Shown here: in pieces, positions 10,879-40,555 of the stretch | Position numbering within the stretch: the first letter of the stretch is position 1 | How the letters are laid out: each line of letters starts with the position of its first letter | Source: Prevotella sp. | GTDB lineage: Bacteria > Bacteroidota > Bacteroidia > Bacteroidales > Bacteroidaceae | Length of the DNA: 40,849 nt | Assembly (NCBI GenBank): GCA_017413085.1 | Contig: JAFPVC010000012.1 | Coordinates: forward strand, 1-40,849 | Reading direction: 5' to 3' | The notes under the pieces: generated by a model | Databases searched by the model: none | What the model saw: only the letters and a program-made list of their open reading frames with translations | What the model was told of the DNA's origin: nothing | Program-made: the position numbers and the translations under genes

Positions 10879-10954
10879 GCAAAGTTACAAATAAATTTTG
10901 GAATAACAAAACATTTGAGGGATTTCTCGCCAAAGGCGATGATAAAAAGAAACA
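10879..10954. repeat. 76-bp direct repeat, left copy, flanking fic
   Basis: Matches 11751-11826 at 70 of 76 positions with no indels. It begins 6 bp past the fic stop and holds the alcohol dehydrogenase promoter plus a TCGCC-aaa-GGCGA mini-hairpin. Confidence 0.93.
10880..10910 (-). promoter_or_regulatory. Promoter of the alcohol dehydrogenase operon
   Basis: On the minus strand, TTTG (10910-10907) and TAACTTTG (10887-10880) are separated by 19 nt, matching the Bacteroidetes primary sigma consensus. Transcription would start about 30 bp before the ATG. Confidence 0.85.
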
Positions 10955-10959
10955 GCCGT

Positions 10960-11745
10960 TCAGAAGAGGAACGACATCAAGCGGCTGTTATGCCGTTTCT
11001 GGTTCATAGCCTCGCGCATGTGGCTGATGGCACAGTCAAGGAAAAAATGCGTCAGGTGTTCATCTGTCCCCTCTGTGCGTATCTGCCGCAGGGCGGCAAT
11101 ATACTTGTTGCGTTCTTCCTTATAGATAACCAGGAGCGGATGCTCCTTACGCAACAGTATGTAGTTGCTAATGAGCCGGCCGGTACGGCCGTTGCCGTCG
11201 CGGAAAGGGTGCAGATATTCAAAATAACCATGAAAGCGCGCAGCCACTATCATAGGGTGGGCGTTGCCCTGCAGGGCTTTCTCAGTGCTCTCGAGCAGGT
11301 GCGGCACCTGGGCTATCAGCCTCTCATGATTGCCAAAGACGGTATCGCCTGCCACCATGTCTTCCGTTGTGTATTCTCCGGGTACGGCGTCAGGTGCTTT
11401 ATAGGTCAACGTGTTTTTGGTAACCAAGCGGTTTGTCTCTTTAAGCAGTTCTTCGTTGAGTGGGTGTTGCAAACTGTTGAACACGTATTCAAAAGCCTTG
11501 AAATGGTCTGCCATTTCAAGGCACTCAAAAAGTTTGCGGCCGCTTGGCACCATGCCCAGACCCAGTTCCTTCAGTGTGCGGGTGTCATCAACGGTAAACG
11601 AATTTCCCTCAATGGCACACGAATGAGCGGAGAACAGTATTTCGCCATATTCCCGATACTGTTCTTCAGACATACGCTCCTGTATCTCATCCTGATACCG
11701 TTTGCGCATCTCGTCATATACCGCTATTTTCTCATCAATGGTCAT
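10960..11745 (-). CDS. Fic-family AMP-transferase (class II)
   Basis: 261 residues from ATG 11745 (MTIDEK...). The frame extends 12 codons upstream, but those overlap the promoter. The catalytic Fic loop HPFRDGNGRTGR (about 179-190) is intact, with the His base and the nucleotide-binding Gly-Asn-Gly-Arg. An N-terminal autoinhibitory motif, S-x-x-x-E-G-N (SCAIEGN, about 42-48), marks a class II, self-restrained enzyme. Such proteins usually add AMP to host or partner proteins; the target is unknown. The promoter-bearing repeat on its right supplies its own transcription, and the same repeat copy follows its stop. No antitoxin gene adjoins it, as expected when inhibition is built in. Confidence 0.93.
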   Translation of the reverse strand: MTIDEKIAVYDEMRKRYQDEIQERMSEEQYREYGEILFSAHSCAIEGNSFTVDDTRTLKELGLGMVPSGRKLFECLEMADHFKAFEYVFNSLQHPLNEELLKETNRLVTKNTLTYKAPDAVPGEYTTEDMVAGDTVFGNHERLIAQVPHLLESTEKALQGNAHPMIVAARFHGYFEYLHPFRDGNGRTGRLISNYILLRKEHPLLVIYKEERNKYIAALRQIRTEGTDEHLTHFFLDCAISHMREAMNQKRHNSRLMSFLF

Positions 11746-11750
11746 GCTGT

Positions 11751-11826
11751 GCAAAATTACAAATAAATTTTGGAATAACAAAACATTTGAAAGATTTCTC
11801 GCCGAAGGCGATAATAAATAGAAACA
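11751..11826. repeat. 76-bp direct repeat, right copy, flanking fic
   Basis: Right member of the pair with 10879-10954. It ends one codon-scale step before the fic start and carries the fic promoter. The unit from one repeat to the next is 872 bp and contains only fic. Confidence 0.93.
11752..11782 (-). promoter_or_regulatory. fic promoter
   Basis: TTTG (11782-11779) and TAATTTTG (11759-11752) on the minus strand with 19 nt between. The predicted start of transcription falls almost at the fic ATG (11745), so the mRNA would be nearly leaderless. Confidence 0.8.
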
Positions 11827-11847
11827 AAAAGAAATAACCTTTACACA

Positions 11848-12110
11848 ATGTCACGAAAAAAGCGATTCTGCTTACACTCTGATTTTCCCTACCGCCGTTT
11901 CCTTGGATTATTTTCAAACGGCAGAAAAGTATTTGAAAATAACGCAAGCATCAGCATTTGCTAACTCATTGATAATCAACAGAGGCATTTCCTTACCATC
12001 GTAATCAGTACCTGATTGCACGATAATCAGTACTTAATTACACGATAATCGGCACTTGATTGGGATGTAATCGGCACCTGATTACACAGTAATCGCACCC
12101 TAATTGCATC
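11848..12110. repeat. Extragenic element A with five 22-bp palindromic tandem units
   Basis: The 480-bp gap between fic and the DUF4435 gene holds no gene. It contains a box ATGTCACGAAAAA (from 11848), then GATTTTCCCTACCGCC, a ~90-bp AT-rich linker, and an array at 12001-12110 of exactly five 22-nt units. The unit consensus is RTAATCRG-YAC-YTGATTRC plus about three bases, and each unit is itself an imperfect palindrome (TAATCAG...CTGATTA). The same arrangement recurs at 33935-34230. There are no unique spacers, so it is not CRISPR. Confidence 0.85.
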
Positions 12111-12127
12111 GCAAAAACTGTGATTTG

Positions 12128-12159
12128 TAAAAAAAGCCCGTTTTCATTCCTGAAAACGG
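12128..12159 (-). terminator. Terminator of the ATPase/DUF4435 pair
   Basis: CCGTTTTC (12138-12145) pairs with GAAAACGG (12152-12159). On the minus strand the stem is followed by GGCTTTTTTTAC. It lies about 100 bp past the DUF4435 stop. Confidence 0.75.
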
Positions 12160-12262
12160 ACATATATATCGTAGCGGCGTTTCTATTTCGTCACCCCAGC
12201 ATGCAACTTTTTGAAATGACACTTTGCAAGGAGCAACGGCTGAAAACTGACATAATGTCAAT

Positions 12263-14260: not shown

Positions 14261-14356
14261 TTCAATCCTTCAATCCTTCAATTCTTCAATCCTTCAATTC
14301 TTCAATCCTTCAATTCTTCAATTCTTCAATTTTTCAATTCTTCAATCCTTCAATTC
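14261..14356. repeat. Twelve-copy 8-nt repeat (TTCAATYC)
   Basis: Exactly 12 units of TTCAATCC, TTCAATTC or TTCAATTT-like sequence, 96 nt, ending at the stop codon of the metallo-hydrolase gene (14356). It fills most of the 245-bp gap to the ATPase gene. Confidence 0.93.
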
Positions 14357-15117
14357 TACTCATAGTGTCTGACCCTTACCTCAACACCATGTTCCTTTAA
14401 CAAATCAGGGATGCCACTCACGTCTGTCTGCCCATAGTGATAGGGAAACAGAACCCTGGGCTTCACAATCTTCGCTGCGCTTACAAGTTGCTCCGGTGTC
14501 ATCGTGAAAGGCTGGTTGCAAGGAAGGAAAGCAATGTCTATATCCTTAATGTCTGACATTTCAGGTATGTCCTCTGTATCGCCGGCAATGTAAATCCTCA
14601 GTCCGTCAATGGTAAGGATGAAACCGTTGTCCCTTCCTTTGGGGTGGAACTTCTTGTTAGCCTCTGTAGTGTTGTAGGCAGGTACAGCCTCTATGAAAAA
14701 GTCATCTGCAATCCGCTGCTTGTCACCATTTGCCATCATAGTGCCATATCCCAGCATGTCGCCACAGCGTTTGTTTGTAATGAGCATGGTGTTCTCCCCT
14801 GAGAGTTGCTTTATGGCTTCCTTGTCAAAGTGGTCTTGATGCTCATGTGTCACAAAGATATAGTCAGCCTTGGGCATAGATGCGTAATCAACACTCCTTT
14901 CACGCAGTTTCAATACAGGGTCAATCTCTATTTCCTTGCCGTCATATTCAATTCTGATACTTGCGTGCATGAGAGCGTGGAATTTGATTTCTTTCCCGCT
15001 CTTCGTCTTAAACTCATCAACCTCATAGGTGTCCGTCGGAGCAGCCCCGTGGTTATGCTGACAATTAGCGGCTGTCAGTCCGAATACAGCCAATAAACAT
15101 GTGATAAACTTCTTCAT
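14356..15117 (-). CDS. Exported metallo-beta-lactamase-fold hydrolase (UlaG-like)
   Basis: 253 residues with an N-terminal signal (KKFITCLLAVFGLTAANC). The Cys at 19 is preceded by Asn, so a lipoprotein is doubtful. The metal-binding signature THEHQDHFD and the later AGDTED and PYHYGQTD motifs supply the His/Asp ligands of the MBL fold. The sequence resembles UlaG-like or PNPase-type hydrolases rather than antibiotic beta-lactamases. The substrate is unknown. The gene is flanked on both sides by 8-nt TTCAATTY repeats. A TAAATTTG box (15150-15143, minus) lies about 25 bp before the ATG. It is a single-gene unit between the ATPase pair and the second surface-protein cluster. Confidence 0.88.
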   Translation of the reverse strand: MKKFITCLLAVFGLTAANCQHNHGAAPTDTYEVDEFKTKSGKEIKFHALMHASIRIEYDGKEIEIDPVLKLRERSVDYASMPKADYIFVTHEHQDHFDKEAIKQLSGENTMLITNKRCGDMLGYGTMMANGDKQRIADDFFIEAVPAYNTTEANKKFHPKGRDNGFILTIDGLRIYIAGDTEDIPEMSDIKDIDIAFLPCNQPFTMTPEQLVSAAKIVKPRVLFPYHYGQTDVSGIPDLLKEHGVEVRVRHYE

Positions 15118-28231: not shown

Positions 28232-28304
28232 TACACCCTCAGAGGCTCGAACTCTGGACCCACTGATTAAGAGTCAGTTGCTCTACCAACTGAGCTAAGG
28301 GTGC
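28232..28304 (-). tRNA. tRNA-Lys (anticodon CTT)
   Basis: 73 nt with a full cloverleaf. The acceptor arms GCACCCT/AGGGTGT pair with one G-T, the D-arm is GCTC-AGTTGGTA-GAGC, the anticodon stem is ACTGA/TCAGT around loop CTCTTAA (anticodon CTT, reading AAG), and the T-arm is CAGAG-TTCGAGC-CTCTG. The 3' CCA is not encoded. It has its own promoter and terminator. Confidence 0.97.
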
Positions 28305-32615: not shown

Positions 32616-33922
32616 AAAAACCGTTAGTACCTAAGAAATATCTTTTCACATTCATCATCATCACCTCACTGTTTGCGCTGTGGGGCTTTGCCAACGACAT
32701 CACAAACCCGATGGTGGCGGCATTCCAGACAGTCATGGAACTGTCGGCTGCCAAGGCTTCGCTGATTCAGTTTGCATTCTACGGCGGCTATGCCACCATG
32801 GCCATACCTGCCGCACTGTTCATACGCCGTTACTCATACAAGAGCGGCATACTGCTCGGACTGGCACTCTATGCCGTGGGCGCATTCCTCTTTATACCGG
32901 CGGCTGAATGGCAGGAGTTCAGTTTCTTCTGCGTATCGCTGTATATCCTTACCTTCGGCCTGGCATTCCTCGAGACTACCGCCAATCCTTTCATTCTGTC
33001 ACTGGGCGACAAAGAGACATCCACGCGCCGACTGAACCTTGCACAGGCATTCAATCCCGTGGGTTCGCTGAGCGGCATGGCTGTGGCTTCGTTCATCGTA
33101 CTGCCGCAGTTGCTCTCTGATAAGCGCGACGCCGCAGGGCATATCATCTTCCCCCTGCTCTCCGAAGCAGAGAAGGCCGACATACGTCTGCACGACCTCG
33201 CCGTCATACGCAACCCTTACGTGGCTCTCGGACTGGTGGTGCTGGCGGTGCTGGTAATCATCGCACTGACTAAGATGCCGCAGACGGAGAGCGAGGAGCT
33301 GAAGGCTGCCGGCGAGACCCACACGGTGAAGGAAACTCTGTCAAACCTGTGGCACAACAGCATTTACCGCGAGGGCGTATTCGCACAGGTGTGCTATGTG
33401 GCAGCACAGATTATGGTATGGACCTTCATAATACAGTATGCCGATCACCTCGGCATCAACAAGGCCACGGCACAGATGTATAACATCGTTGCGATGTCGT
33501 TCAACCTCGGCGGACGCTTCATAGGCACCTTCATCATGCGCTATGTGAACACACGCCGCCTGCTTGCCATCTTCGGTGTTGGAGCCTCTCTATGCACACT
33601 GGGCGCAATCTGCATTGAGGGCATGGCCGGACTCTACAGTCTTGTGTGCATCAGCCTCTTCATGTCTATCATGTTCCCAAGCATCTACGGCATTGCCCTT
33701 GAAAACGTGGATTCCAAGGACACACACCTTGGCGCAGCATTCCTCGTGATGGCAATCGTTGGCGGTGCACTGATGCCGCCGCTTCAGGGACTGCTGATCG
33801 ACCAGGGCACCATCTGGGGGCAGCCGGCAGTAAACATGTCGTTCCTCCTGCCGCTCGCCTGCTTCCTCGTGATCATCGTATATGGCTTGCGTGCCTACAT
33901 GCAGAAGGAGACAAAGGCATAG
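32612..33922 (+). CDS. fucP: FucP-type L-fucose:H+ symporter
   Basis: 436 residues with twelve membrane helices, very near E. coli FucP (438). The proton-coupling acids match: Asp29 in FANDITNPMV and Glu121 in FLETTANPF. The MFS/FHS family pattern SLFALWGFANDITNP is present. It brings in L-fucose or a similar 6-deoxy sugar. Third gene of a tightly overlapping operon; a terminator follows only after a ~310-bp tail containing the second 22-bp array. Confidence 0.93.
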   Translation: MKKPLVPKKYLFTFIIITSLFALWGFANDITNPMVAAFQTVMELSAAKASLIQFAFYGGYATMAIPAALFIRRYSYKSGILLGLALYAVGAFLFIPAAEWQEFSFFCVSLYILTFGLAFLETTANPFILSLGDKETSTRRLNLAQAFNPVGSLSGMAVASFIVLPQLLSDKRDAAGHIIFPLLSEAEKADIRLHDLAVIRNPYVALGLVVLAVLVIIALTKMPQTESEELKAAGETHTVKETLSNLWHNSIYREGVFAQVCYVAAQIMVWTFIIQYADHLGINKATAQMYNIVAMSFNLGGRFIGTFIMRYVNTRRLLAIFGVGASLCTLGAICIEGMAGLYSLVCISLFMSIMFPSIYGIALENVDSKDTHLGAAFLVMAIVGGALMPPLQGLLIDQGTIWGQPAVNMSFLLPLACFLVIIVYGLRAYMQKETKA

Positions 33923-33934
33923 AACCGCGACAGT

Positions 33935-34230
33935 ATGTCACGAAAAAGACCGTATTGCTGACAAAGTGATTTTCCATACCGCCAAAATACTGGCGTATTT
34001 CAAAAAATCTTTCCCGCAGTTTCGTACAGCGGAAACATGGCAATTTTGTTAATTCCTTTCAAATCAGCCATTTAGATTTTAGGATATTTTCCGCCACTGT
34101 AATCAGCACTTAATTACAACGTAATTGAGGCTTGATTACAACGTAATTGAGGCTTGATTACAGTGTAATTGAGGCCTGATTACAGTGTAATCAGGGGCAA
34201 ATTACAGTGTAAAAGCATACTGATTACAAC
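33935..34230. repeat. Extragenic element B with six 22-bp palindromic tandem units
   Basis: Begins 12 bp after the permease stop with ATGTCACGAAAAAG and then GTGATTTTCCATACCGCC, both matching element A at 11848. The array at 34099-34230 has exactly six 22-nt units: GTAATCAG-CAC-TTAATTAC..., then three GTAATTGAGGC(T/C)TGATTAC-type units, then two more divergent ones. The box-to-array distance is ~160 nt, against ~150 nt in element A. Confidence 0.87.
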
Positions 34231-34231
34231 G

Positions 34232-34279
34232 AAAAACCGTAGCAAGTCCATAAAACTTGCTACGGTTTTCTATTTTTTT
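34232..34279 (+). terminator. Terminator after the sugar operon
   Basis: AAAACCGTAGCAAG (34233-34246) pairs with CTTGCTACGGTTTT (34256-34269), a 14-bp stem, followed by CTATTTTTTT. It directly follows the last 22-bp unit. Confidence 0.9.
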
Positions 34280-34457
34280 ATGGTTTTGCCAACACTTCAC
34301 TCGTGATTTTGTTGCAAGGTTACTTCTAGATTGCACACTGGAGACGACTATTTGAAAATATCATTCTGTAAGCAAAACCGCCAGAATAGTGTCAAAGTGT
34401 AATTTCTTGCTTTCTAATTCTTATTCCTTATAATTATGCGAATTGATGTATGGAAAA

Positions 34458-34489
34458 TTTGGCGGTTTGGATAAAAAGTTGTAAATTTG
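34458..34489 (+). promoter_or_regulatory. Perfect promoter with no gene behind it
   Basis: TTTG (34458-34461) and TAAATTTG (34482-34489), 20 nt apart. The transcript would run antisense into the decayed surface-protein remnant, and no plausible plus-strand gene starts before 35062. Confidence 0.75.
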
Positions 34490-34526
34490 CAAACAAGAAC
34501 AGTTGAAGCTATTACCGCATGGTAAT

Positions 34527-34547
34527 TGTGCATTGTGCATTGTGCAT
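34527..34547. repeat. Three-copy 7-nt repeat (TGTGCAT)
   Basis: Same unit as in the ATPase/DUF4435 junction (13252-13300); it ends 2 bp before the stop of the peptide remnant. Confidence 0.85.
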
Positions 34548-34549
34548 TG

Positions 34550-34920
34550 TTATTCCCACTCACTTGCCCAGCCACCAAACTCCTTGGCGCGGGGCTGTTC
34601 TTACTCTATCACTACAGTCTTGTCATTATGTATATACATACCTTTCTTTGAAGGCTTGCCACTCAGGCGGATGCCGCTGACGGTATGCCAACTATCAGCA
34701 TTGTCATTCTGCATTATGAATTATGAATTCCAGTGGCCTCCTCGTCGTCCTCACCAAAGTCGATGACGAATCCCGTGATGCCCTTAGGTATGAAGTTGTT
34801 TTCTATGCTACGGTCATAAGTCAGGTCATTACCTAATGCGAAGTATTTGCCATTGTAACTGTTGCCTTCTGACACCTGCTGCGACAGATAGTTCATGGCT
34901 GTAGTATTGGTGATGATATT
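34550..34920 (-). pseudogene. Decayed surface-protein plus peptide gene remnant
   Basis: Reading leftwards, 34920-34714 encodes a GLUG-type entry (NIITNTTAMNYLSQQ, KYFALGNDLTYDRS) fused directly to a C-terminal segment (GFVIDFGEDDEEATGI), so the middle of the gene is deleted. A 7-nt repeat at the linker (AATTCAT, AATTCAT, AATGCAG) then brings a stop. In another frame the tail continues as WHTVSGIRLSGKPSKKGMY and ends in VVIE-stop at 34601. The very next codons (34600-34550) encode EQPRAKEFGGWASEWE, matching the C-terminus of the 60-residue peptide at 2503. The order surface protein then peptide is kept, but both are truncated. Confidence 0.85.
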
Positions 34921-35015
34921 ACAAAAAAAATTCTAACCATCAAACAATATCAGCACTATATTGCAGAAAAACAGGACAAAAGGCACATTATTTTTAAGTT
35001 AACCCATTTTTTCAG

Positions 35016-35023
35016 TAACTTTG
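35016..35023 (+). promoter_or_regulatory. -7 box of the zinc dehydrogenase gene
   Basis: TAACTTTG, 38 bp before the ATG; T-rich sequence stands where TTTG is expected. Confidence 0.65.
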
Positions 35024-35061
35024 TAGTTTAATATTGAACATGACGAAATAACAGAGAAACA

Positions 35062-37936: not shown

Positions 37937-40555
37937 TTACAGCTGTGCCAGCTCTATTACCTTGTCAACGGCTTCTTTCAGACCGTCGGCATTCTTGCCG
38001 CCGGCTGTAGCGAAGTGCGGCTGGCCACCACCGCCACCCTGGATGAGTTTGCCTGCCTCGCGTACTATCTGACCAGCATGCTTGCCTTCCTTGACAAGGT
38101 CGTCGGAGAAGGCTACGGTGAGTGTCGGCTTGCCTCCTACAGCACAGCCGATGGCTACGAGCAGGTGCTCAGGGAACTGCGCACGCAACTGGAATGCCAT
38201 GTCCTTGGCGTTCTGTGCCTCGATTGGCAGTACACCACAGACAACCTTGGTACCGTTGATGTCCTTGGCGTTCTTTATCAATTCCTCCTTGAACTGCGAA
38301 GCCTTCTGGGACTTGAACTCCTCTACCTGTGCCTGCAGTTCCTTGTTCTCGCTGATGGCCTTCGTGATGGTCTCAAGCAGATTCGGGGTGTTGTTGAACA
38401 ATGCACGCAGGTCATTCTGAAGGTCTTGTGCCATGTCCATGAGTTTCTCAACGGCAGCACCCGTGATTGCCTCGATACGGCGAACGCCGGCTGCCACGCT
38501 GCTCTCAGAAGTGATGCGCACCATACCTATCTGGCCTGTGGCCTTGGCATGGCAGCCACCGCAGAACTCTACAGAAGAACCGAACTTAACCACGCGGACC
38601 TTGTCGCCGTACTTCTCACCGAAGAGGGCAATGGCACCGAGCTGCTTGGCTTCCTCTATCGGAGTGTTGCGGAACTCCTGCAAAGGTATGTTCTCACGTA
38701 TGCGGGCATTGACGATGTGCTCCACCTCGCGCAACTGCTCCGGCGTTACCTTCTCGAAATGTGAGAAGTCGAAACGCAGGTAGTCGGCCGTCACAAGCGA
38801 ACCCTTCTGCTCTACATGCTCGCCGAGCACCTCGCGCAGAGCCTGGTCAAGCAGGTGGGTACATGTGTGGTTGCTCTCCACCGCACGGCGGCGGTCGGTG
38901 TCAACGCAAGCCATGAACTCTGCCTCCGGCTGCTGTGGAATCTTGTCAACGATGTGTATGGCAACGCCGTTCTCCTTCTTAGTGTCGAGCACCTTTATCT
39001 CCTCGTTCTCAGAAACAAGTACGCCGGTGTCGCCAACCTCACCGCCCATCTCTCCATAGAACGGAGTCTGGTCGAGAATCATCTCGTAGGCAGTGCCTTT
39101 CTTCTGCTTCACCTCGCGGTATTTCACGATGTGACAAGGATATTCAGTATAGTCGTAGCCAACGAACAGGCTTTCCTCTGTTTCGTTCACTACATTCCAG
39201 TCACCCAATTTCACCTCTGCAGCGTTGCGTGCGCGGTTCTTCTGCTCCTGCATGCACTTGTCGAAGCCCTGCTCGTCAACGGTCATGTTCTGCTCACGGC
39301 AGATGAGTTCGGTAAGGTCGAGAGGGAATCCGAAGGTGTCGAACAGAGTAAACGCCTTGTCGCCGGCAATCTCTGTCTTGCCTGCAGCCTTGGTCTCGTC
39401 GATTACGCCCTGCAGAAGTTTGATACCGTTCTCCAGTGTGCGCAGGAATGAAGACTCCTCCTCCTGCATCACCTTCATGATGAGTTTCTGCTGTGCTGGC
39501 AGTTCTGGGAATGCCTCGCCCATCTCCTCCACAAGAACCGGCACGAGTTTGTATATGAAAGCCTCCTTCTGTCCGAGGAACGTATATCCGTAGCGCACGG
39601 CACGGCGCAGTATGCGGCGAATGACATATCCAGCCTTTGCGTTTGACGGCAGCTGTCCGTCGGCGATAGCGAAGGCGATGGCACGGAGGTGGTCAACGAT
39701 TACGCGCAGTGCGATGTCCTTCTTCTCGTCGTCACCATACTTGCAGCCGGCCATCTGTGCCATTGCACTGATAAGCGGCTGGAACACGTCGGTGTCGTAG
39801 TTTGATGTCTTGCCCTGCAGTGTGCGCACCAGTCGCTCGAAGCCCATGCCGGTGTCGATAACCTTTGCCGGCAGTCCCTCAAGCGAACCGTCAGCCTTGC
39901 GGTTGAACTGCATGAACACGAGGTTCCATATCTCGATTACCTGCGGGTGGTCTTTGTTTACGAGTTCACGGCCAGGCACCTTAGGCTTCTCCTCTGCAGA
40001 GCGGCTGTCAACGTGGAGCTCAGAGCATGGACCGCACGGACCAGTGTCGCCCATCTCCCAGAAGTTGTCATGCTTGTTTCCGTTGATGATATGATCCTTT
40101 GGCAGGAACTGCTCCCAGATGCTTGCGGCCTCGTCGTCGCGCGCCAGTCCTTCCTCAGGTGAACCCTCGAAGACTGTGGCGTAGAGGTCTGCCGGGTCAA
40201 TCTTCAGCACATCCACGATATACTCCCATGCCCATGATATGGCCTCTTTCTTGAAGTAGTCGCCAAACGACCAGTTGCCAAGCATCTCAAACATGGTGTG
40301 GTGGTAAGTGTCGTGTCCTACCTCCTCAAGGTCGTTGTGCTTGCCGCTTACGCGCAGACACTTCTGCGTGTCGGCCTGACGGCGGCATTTTGGTGTGGCG
40401 TTGCCGAGGATGATGTCCTTAAACTGGTTCATGCCGGCGTTGGTAAACATCAGCGTCGGGTCGTCCTTAACTACCATCGGTGCCGAGGGCACGATGAGGT
40501 GTTCCTTGCTTTCAAAGAATTTCTTGAAAGACTCGCGTATTTCTTTTGCTGTCAT
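37937..40555 (-). CDS. alaS: Alanyl-tRNA synthetase
   Basis: 872 residues (E. coli 876). The class II catalytic domain starts [19 protein letters not shown]. The tRNA-recognition region is in the middle, and the editing domain has the zinc ligands in [11 protein letters not shown] and [13 protein letters not shown] (a CxxxH with an additional Cys where Thr is common). The C-terminal C-Ala domain contains [14 protein letters not shown]. Own promoter at 40627-40657. Confidence 0.98.

Follow-up and report, generated by a model that had tools for sequence, protein, structure and literature searches.

Among the repeats dispersed through bacterial genomes, the REP/BIME sequences and their RAYT systems consist of palindromes at gene ends with a species-specific sequence, and DNA uptake sequences are short single words repeated genome-wide in species dialects and read by a trans-acting protein. 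For the arrays described below a literature search found no named family, in line with the preliminary description of this DNA, and gave the BrickBuilt and PINSR repeats as the nearest systems. In the sections of the source drawn on here, the BrickBuilt MITE of Porphyromonas gingivalis is an intergenic, multicopy element with a leader–array–tail plan and short inverted ends, whose units vary in number and follow one another without spacer and whose copies are flanked by terminators in 10 of 19 cases; the unit is 23 nt long with indels of 0–6%, and one family is described, in P. gingivalis and P. gulae (PMC4596501). PINSR is a clade-restricted 188-bp repeat of Prevotella intermedia and P. nigrescens, intergenic and present in 177–184 copies, with about three quarters of its places common to two strains and with no inverted ends described in the corresponding parts of that source (PMC4755523).

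The arrays analysed here come from a 40,849-nt contig of a Prevotella sp. draft genome (the window; genome G000) and from related genomes. They are near BrickBuilt in kind, which offers a close precedent, and are set apart by the strictness of their 22-bp phase, by being carried on more than one element family and by a linker code that changes in concert. They have in common with it, as far as those sections of its description go, the intergenic multicopy leader–array–tail plan, short inverted ends, variable unit number and terminators. Unlike its 23-nt unit, the unit here is a rigid 22 nt (394 of 402 steps), several element families rather than one carry a single array type, and the linkers have most likely switched in one lineage, whereas no dialect switch is described for BrickBuilt in the sections used (PMC4596501). 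The BrickBuilt ends (GAGACCTTTGCA) have no match near either element of the window and a single match in the window as a whole (2 mismatches, position 38679; 3.9 expected). With PINSR, as described in the parts of its source used here, the arrays share the genus and an intergenic, multicopy and clade-restricted distribution; the arrays and element B differ from a 188-bp repeat without inverted ends, a distinction drawn on the description of PINSR rather than on its sequence. REP/BIME sequences differ in unit length, in lacking a strict 22-bp tandem phase and in that Y1 transposase genes do not track the present arrays, and the single words of DNA uptake sequences contrast with phased arrays in mobile-looking intergenic elements.

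Two elements, A and B, lie in the window, and searches for a common 5′ box, for tandem repeats (TRF) and for a pattern agree on both, as the preliminary description had proposed. Element A (11848–12188, plus strand, 12188 being the end of a match to a copy in genome G190) comprises an outer 5′ box common to B (11848–11896, plus strand, by sequence match), a leader, an array without strand of five linkers (CAGTACCTG, CAGTACTTA, CGGCACTTG, CGGCACCTG and CGCACCCTA; 12001–12110, by TRF and pattern match) and a terminator-like hairpin with a T run on the minus strand (12136–12161, by terminator and folding analysis). Element B is a 465-bp MITE-like element of family F1 (33935–34399, plus strand), delimited by other F1 copies and by its inverted ends, which were placed by end-to-end alignment (left, 33935–33976, plus; right, 34358–34399, minus). 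Between them lie a leader (33977–34098, plus strand; 79–86% identity to three places in the sister genome G414), an array without strand of six linkers (CAGCACTTA, TGAGGCTTG twice, TGAGGCCTG, CAGGGGCAA and AGCATACTG; 34099–34230, by TRF and pattern match) and an intrinsic-terminator-like hairpin with T run (34233–34279, plus strand, hairpin 34233–34269) that is also present in other F1 copies. The common box (11848–11888 and 33935–33975) has an expectation of 0 in shuffled sequence, TRF reported arrays of 22-nt period at 12001–12099 and, in two overlapping rows, at 34109–34191 and 34157–34212, and a core-plus-period pattern (≤3 mismatches) had 9 matches in the window, all inside A or B, with 0 expected. 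Sequence match between A and B is confined to the array and the outer 5′ box (49 nt at 78%), so the two are counted as separate element families. The ends of B form an imperfect inverted repeat (24 of 38 aligned bases identical) that scored above 500 of 500 shuffles. Several earlier details are refined by these results: the unit counts of five and six stand as linker counts; the element of about 300 bp is present twice, but B is longer, its tail and imperfect inverted end reaching about 34399; a terminator hairpin does lie beside each array, but on different strands (A, minus, 12161–12136; B, plus, 34233–34269); and the palindrome TAATCAG-nnn-CTGATTA, assigned to every unit, fits some units only because the 9-nt linkers vary, the conserved part being the core ATTACAnnGTAAT.

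In each array a 13-nt core (ATTACAnTGTAAT) alternates with a 9-nt linker, and other Prevotellaceae share this plan, with the core ATTACnnnGTAAT each 22 bp and 9-nt linkers between. Across 263 units (G000 including the window, and G020), core positions outside the centre carry 0.7–1.9 bits and linker positions outside the centre 0.5–0.7 bits. A distance of 11 bp separates the two dyad centres, which makes the array a succession of 11-bp half-units of alternating direction. Among 402 core-to-core steps in three genomes, counted with steps of 20–24 and 44 nt allowed, 394 are of 22 nt, 7 of 44 nt and 1 of 24 nt (G000, 202 of 22 and 4 of 44; G190, 89 of 22 and 1 of 44; G414, 103 of 22, 2 of 44 and 1 of 24), a count partly conditioned in that the G414 arrays and 36 of 40 G190 stretches were picked by a pattern fixing one 22-nt step; the G000 arrays come from a similarity search. 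Dropped before counting were two low-quality L120 chains (the sole source of 21- and 45-nt steps), one out-of-phase L129 chain, the non-Prevotella loci L199 and L202, and second chains in L190 and L198. The 44-nt steps are read as a degenerate core between two good cores. Constant spacing, as first proposed from the two loci, therefore extends to three genomes, in which free variation of the period was not seen while unit number does vary; against this near-invariant period, pairs of F1 copies have accumulated, in the ~300 nt of their leaders and tails and over the same span of time, a mean of 3 to 15 alignment breaks.

The expectation of further copies was borne out. The G000 draft (2.83 Mb, 62 contigs) holds at least 70 arrays in the stretches fetched with two queries, the window included; a search with B as query, in which 40 of 121 candidates were scored, gave at least 78 matching pieces, and four G190 stretches between listed arrays (77.8 kb) contained one further array each. 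In a collection of 84,980 species, which may omit the window's own genome, an exact pattern matched 21 stretches, 19 of them in 8 Prevotellaceae assemblies and 2 in unrelated organisms; the same pattern had 0 matches in viral contigs, which argues against phage carriage. A dialect-neutral pattern (≤2 mismatches) matched 57 of 398 same-genus genomes including G000, 21 of them with at least 10 matches, low counts (1–4) being individually unreliable, and a one-dialect query recovered less (2 of 40 genomes, G000 and G020; 2 of 398, G000 and one match in G190). The reversed control pattern matched 16 of 398 genomes, three of them (G086, G126 and G248) with at least 10 matches; by reading of the matched words these strong matches are another repeat of 11-nt period, so that the control is not one of pure chance. 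This second dispersed repeat consists of ATTAATG/ATTAACG words, and similar words adjoin arrays in G000 and G414 (flanks of L105, L120 and L195). In G253 and G283, among the survey matches listed, the core is often the variant ATTACTATCTAAT, a possible core dialect. The comparison draws on draft genomes and metagenome bins, in which genes were taken as simple ORF picks.

Flank sequence is common to at least one other array in 48 of the 70 G000 arrays, which fall into several families. Family F1 has the plan leader, array, terminator hairpin, tail and imperfect inverted ends, with 9 copies in G000 and, in G414, 2 complete copies and 1 without tail. G414 keeps the MFS transporter upstream of B (97% amino-acid identity) and the gene blocks on either side (94.9% and 93.1% nucleotide identity), which are 34 nt apart there against 1141 in G000; the whole interval 33908–35048, that is B and neighbouring DNA, is missing from the same operon. 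Since the compact gene order looks ancestral, B was probably inserted in G000 rather than lost from G414. Pfam assigns the genes around B to MFS, amidohydrolase and zinc alcohol dehydrogenase families, and we read the operon as fucose-type. B thus has the terminal inverted repeats of a MITE (seen in B only, and imperfect), and F1 occurs in multiple copies, with a relative that carries an empty site; the flanks of three F1 copies display no clear target-site duplication, and exact element ends are uncertain. In neighbour lists scanned by eye, no transposase was recognised beside arrays, and no recurrent neighbour gene or autonomous element was seen, the gene between two L164 arrays included. 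Element A, together with the adjoining Fic gene (10943–12188), recurs in G190 contig C143 at 98% identity (1223/1247) in other surroundings and with G000-type linkers bearing two changes; this copy was either transferred recently or lies on a contaminating contig, the contamination listed for G190 being 5%. A direct repeat of ~76 bp, seen through the G190 copy, flanks the Fic gene (10879–10954 and 11751–11826; 73/76), and this repeat and element A bound the segment found 98% identical in G190.

The 70 G000 arrays lie in convergent (21), tandem (28) and divergent (12) gaps, at contig ends (5) and over small ORFs (4). For G000 and G190 together, convergent, tandem and divergent gaps number 21/52/16 with arrays and 13/68/35 without (chi-square p 0.02), and 36 of the 52 arrays in tandem gaps are nearer the 3′ end of the upstream gene. 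Terminator-like hairpins occur in 35 of 89 array gaps against 21 of 116 array-free gaps (Fisher p 0.0009), a comparison affected by the greater length of array gaps (median 522 against about 280–330). Few places are shared between genomes: 2 of 38 G414 stretches (L370 and L385) correspond to known G000 arrays, and two or three fetched G190 arrays have a neighbouring gene in common with an array of G000 (L284/L113, L292/L118 and L312/L107), which a rough estimate places at about chance level.

The new point here is that linker evolution is concerted across element families between sister species. Dominant half-linkers are TCAGG, TTTGG and TCAAG in G000 and AAGCT, TATGA and TATGG in G414, and G190 has AGCTATC-like linkers common to G414. 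Because G190 and G414 share linkers though G414 is nearer to G000 (transporter 97% versus 75%), and because G000 keeps linkers of the G190/G414 type as a minority (e.g., AGCATACTG, 6/237), the comparison of these sequences most likely places the switch on the G000 branch. Unaffected by it is the F1 unit at the outer edge (AGCATAC or AGCATAT), present in 7 of 9 G000 copies and in both complete G414 copies. By dialect score all 9 F1 arrays of G000 and all 3 of G414 fell to the genome they come from; the scores of non-F1 arrays (59/61 and 8/8 right) were obtained on the models' own training arrays, the G414 model comprising 8 arrays. Within F1 (9 G000 copies, which split into B1 and B2, and 2 G414 copies; random linker identity 33.1%), B1 and G414 copies (8 pairs) agree at 83.2% in leader and tail, with 3.2 breaks per pair, and at 22.0% in inner linkers in register (24.8% register-free). 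The corresponding values for B1 and B2 within G000 (20 pairs) are 79.5%, 15.3 breaks and 50.3% (55.5% register-free), and for B2 and G414 (10 pairs) 79.8% and 28.1% (33.8% register-free). Flanks and linkers of F1 record different histories, the B1 flanks being nearer to G414 and the B1 linkers nearer to B2.

Over all families, flank, core and linker identities are 83.1, 81.5 and 35.2% for G000 × G414 (28 pairs), 85.7, 93.4 and 98.0% within G414 (30 pairs) and 88.0, 95.4 and 100% for G190 × G414 (8 pairs, all with one G190 array), pairs being non-independent and the G414 and G190 pairs listed being mostly of one family. In a 7-copy G414 family linkers depart from consensus at 7.1% (9/126), less strict than the pairs suggest. 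The orthologous array L138/L370 (flank 91%, core 90%, five linkers each) has one identical linker, whereas the remaining four differ at 20 of their 36 positions; 2 of 4 inner cores are identical, one a rare variant. Linkers are identical in a second orthologous pair of 2–3 weak units (L140/L385) and 74% kept in the homologous cross-species pair L135/L358. Among G000 F1 copies linker drift (16.7%) about equals flank drift (14.5%, a figure that takes in DNA beyond the elements), and cores between species (~82%) are no better kept than flanks.

Folded as RNA, array B is stable relative to dinucleotide shuffles on both strands (z −9.6 plus, −7.9 minus) and A less so (−2.8 plus, −1.6 minus). Real arrays compared with same-genome linker swaps gained nothing (mean z 0.05 ± 0.12 in G000, 0.55 ± 0.14 in G190 and 0.15 ± 0.25 in G414), and reverse-complement linkers within arrays were not in excess (9 against 10.2 expected), so that RNA stems between units were rejected. 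Palindromic half-linkers are rarer than shuffled in G000 (26/237 against 38.4), with no avoidance in G020 (6/31 against 5.7). At the Rfam gathering score the sole window match was a tRNA (28232–28304), best scores in the region of B being far below cut-off. Of the two functions first suggested for the array, protein sites or a row of RNA hairpins, the former appears the better half, and a selected hairpin row is not supported, since linker swaps fold at least as well.

We tentatively prefer the reading that the arrays are a MITE-borne minisatellite providing phased DNA sites for a putative trans-acting protein. They are the payload of non-autonomous MITE-like intergenic elements, as copy number, repeated flanks, the inverted ends of B and the empty site show. 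They would act as double-stranded DNA in which, with one palindromic core per two helical turns, each unit offers a protein site on the same helix face, a view based on how little the period varies and on the absence of selection for RNA folding. Such a protein would act in trans on a genome's arrays and also read linkers, and a shift of its preference in the G000 lineage could have taken the linkers of several element families along; the linker difference is parallel across families, and a protein may lie behind it. The arrays might serve transposition-complex assembly, element control or a nucleoid or insulator role at gene ends, and we favour an element-linked use. Against a protein reader stand the patchy presence of arrays (57/398), which an essential function of the host would hardly lead one to expect, the drift of G000 F1 linkers at about flank rate, weak for strong current constraint, the kept linkers of L140/L385 and L135/L358 and cores no better kept than flanks, the good folding of arrays in absolute terms, and the lack of any candidate protein gene recurring in the neighbour lists. 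Doubtful, if more far-reaching, is the proposal that genus-level phased arrays on unrelated small mobile elements carry in their linkers a species code that a fast-evolving protein reads, with G000 seen after a code switch; if true, this would be a bacterial counterpart of satellite arrays co-evolving with their binding protein.

The main rival to the protein reading is silent homogenisation, a real possibility, in which a selfish minisatellite without binding protein changes by slippage or unequal exchange within arrays and by short-tract conversion between loci. Each genome would then drift to a linker set of its own (molecular drive), and the period would persist since copying proceeds by complete units. 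The excess in G000 of linkers directly repeated within an array (36 against 10.2 by shuffle) and the replacement in L110/L111 of one unit as a ~30-nt tract, with the other linkers in agreement, speak for it, and BrickBuilt and PINSR are, in the parts of their descriptions used, multicopy intergenic repeats without known function in the same order. Yet multi-unit runs common to arrays with unrelated flanks are few: exact runs of at least 28 nt occur in 5 of 1791 such pairs against 1–4 in five unit shuffles, so hardly in excess, and array-to-array copying was rejected. Nor does block replacement give what is seen in L138/L370, where the rare core variant stayed while adjoining linkers changed, and the G414 and G190 pairs listed keep linkers (98–100%) better than flanks (86–88%). 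Arrays transcribed into hairpins that end transcription or shield RNA 3′ ends would account for the gene-end bias of the placement (36/52 in tandem gaps), the terminator-like hairpins of array gaps and the folding of array B; they are nevertheless improbable, as the way linkers are arranged leaves folding unchanged or worsens it, palindromic half-linkers are rarer than shuffled in G000 (though not in G020), reverse-complement linkers are not enriched, hairpins do not need a fixed 22-nt period and promoter avoidance gives the same bias. Spread of REP-like sequences by a RAYT (Y1) transposase, with the dialect following from its specificity, would fit dispersed palindromes of species-specific sequence, and the Y1 genes of G155 and G180 do lie near arrays (the 5-core L244 and the weak 2-core L254). 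However, PF01797 has matches in 7 of 13 genomes with arrays and in 9 of 14 without (several of the former being incomplete), arrays are near 2 of 28 Y1 loci (2 of 10 in array-bearing genomes) and the sole match of G000 is weak (23.9 bits, cut-off 23) with no array in its locus; Y1 genes do not track arrays across genomes, and this origin, rejected here, is very improbable.

To our knowledge, it is rare in bacteria to catch many dispersed non-coding loci changing in concert between sister species. Array DNA in two dialects could serve as bait for a factor that reads dispersed repeats and would test selection against molecular drive. Arrays also separate neighbouring genes and introduce a hairpin of terminator type between them, the operon holding B being an example. 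Among other small repeats, solitary REP-like palindromes (TGTAAGCAAA...TTTGCTTACA) are present in the flanks of L117, L123 and L138, and in the window TRF reported twelve copies of the 8-nt repeat TTCAATTC between two ORFs (14261–14357).
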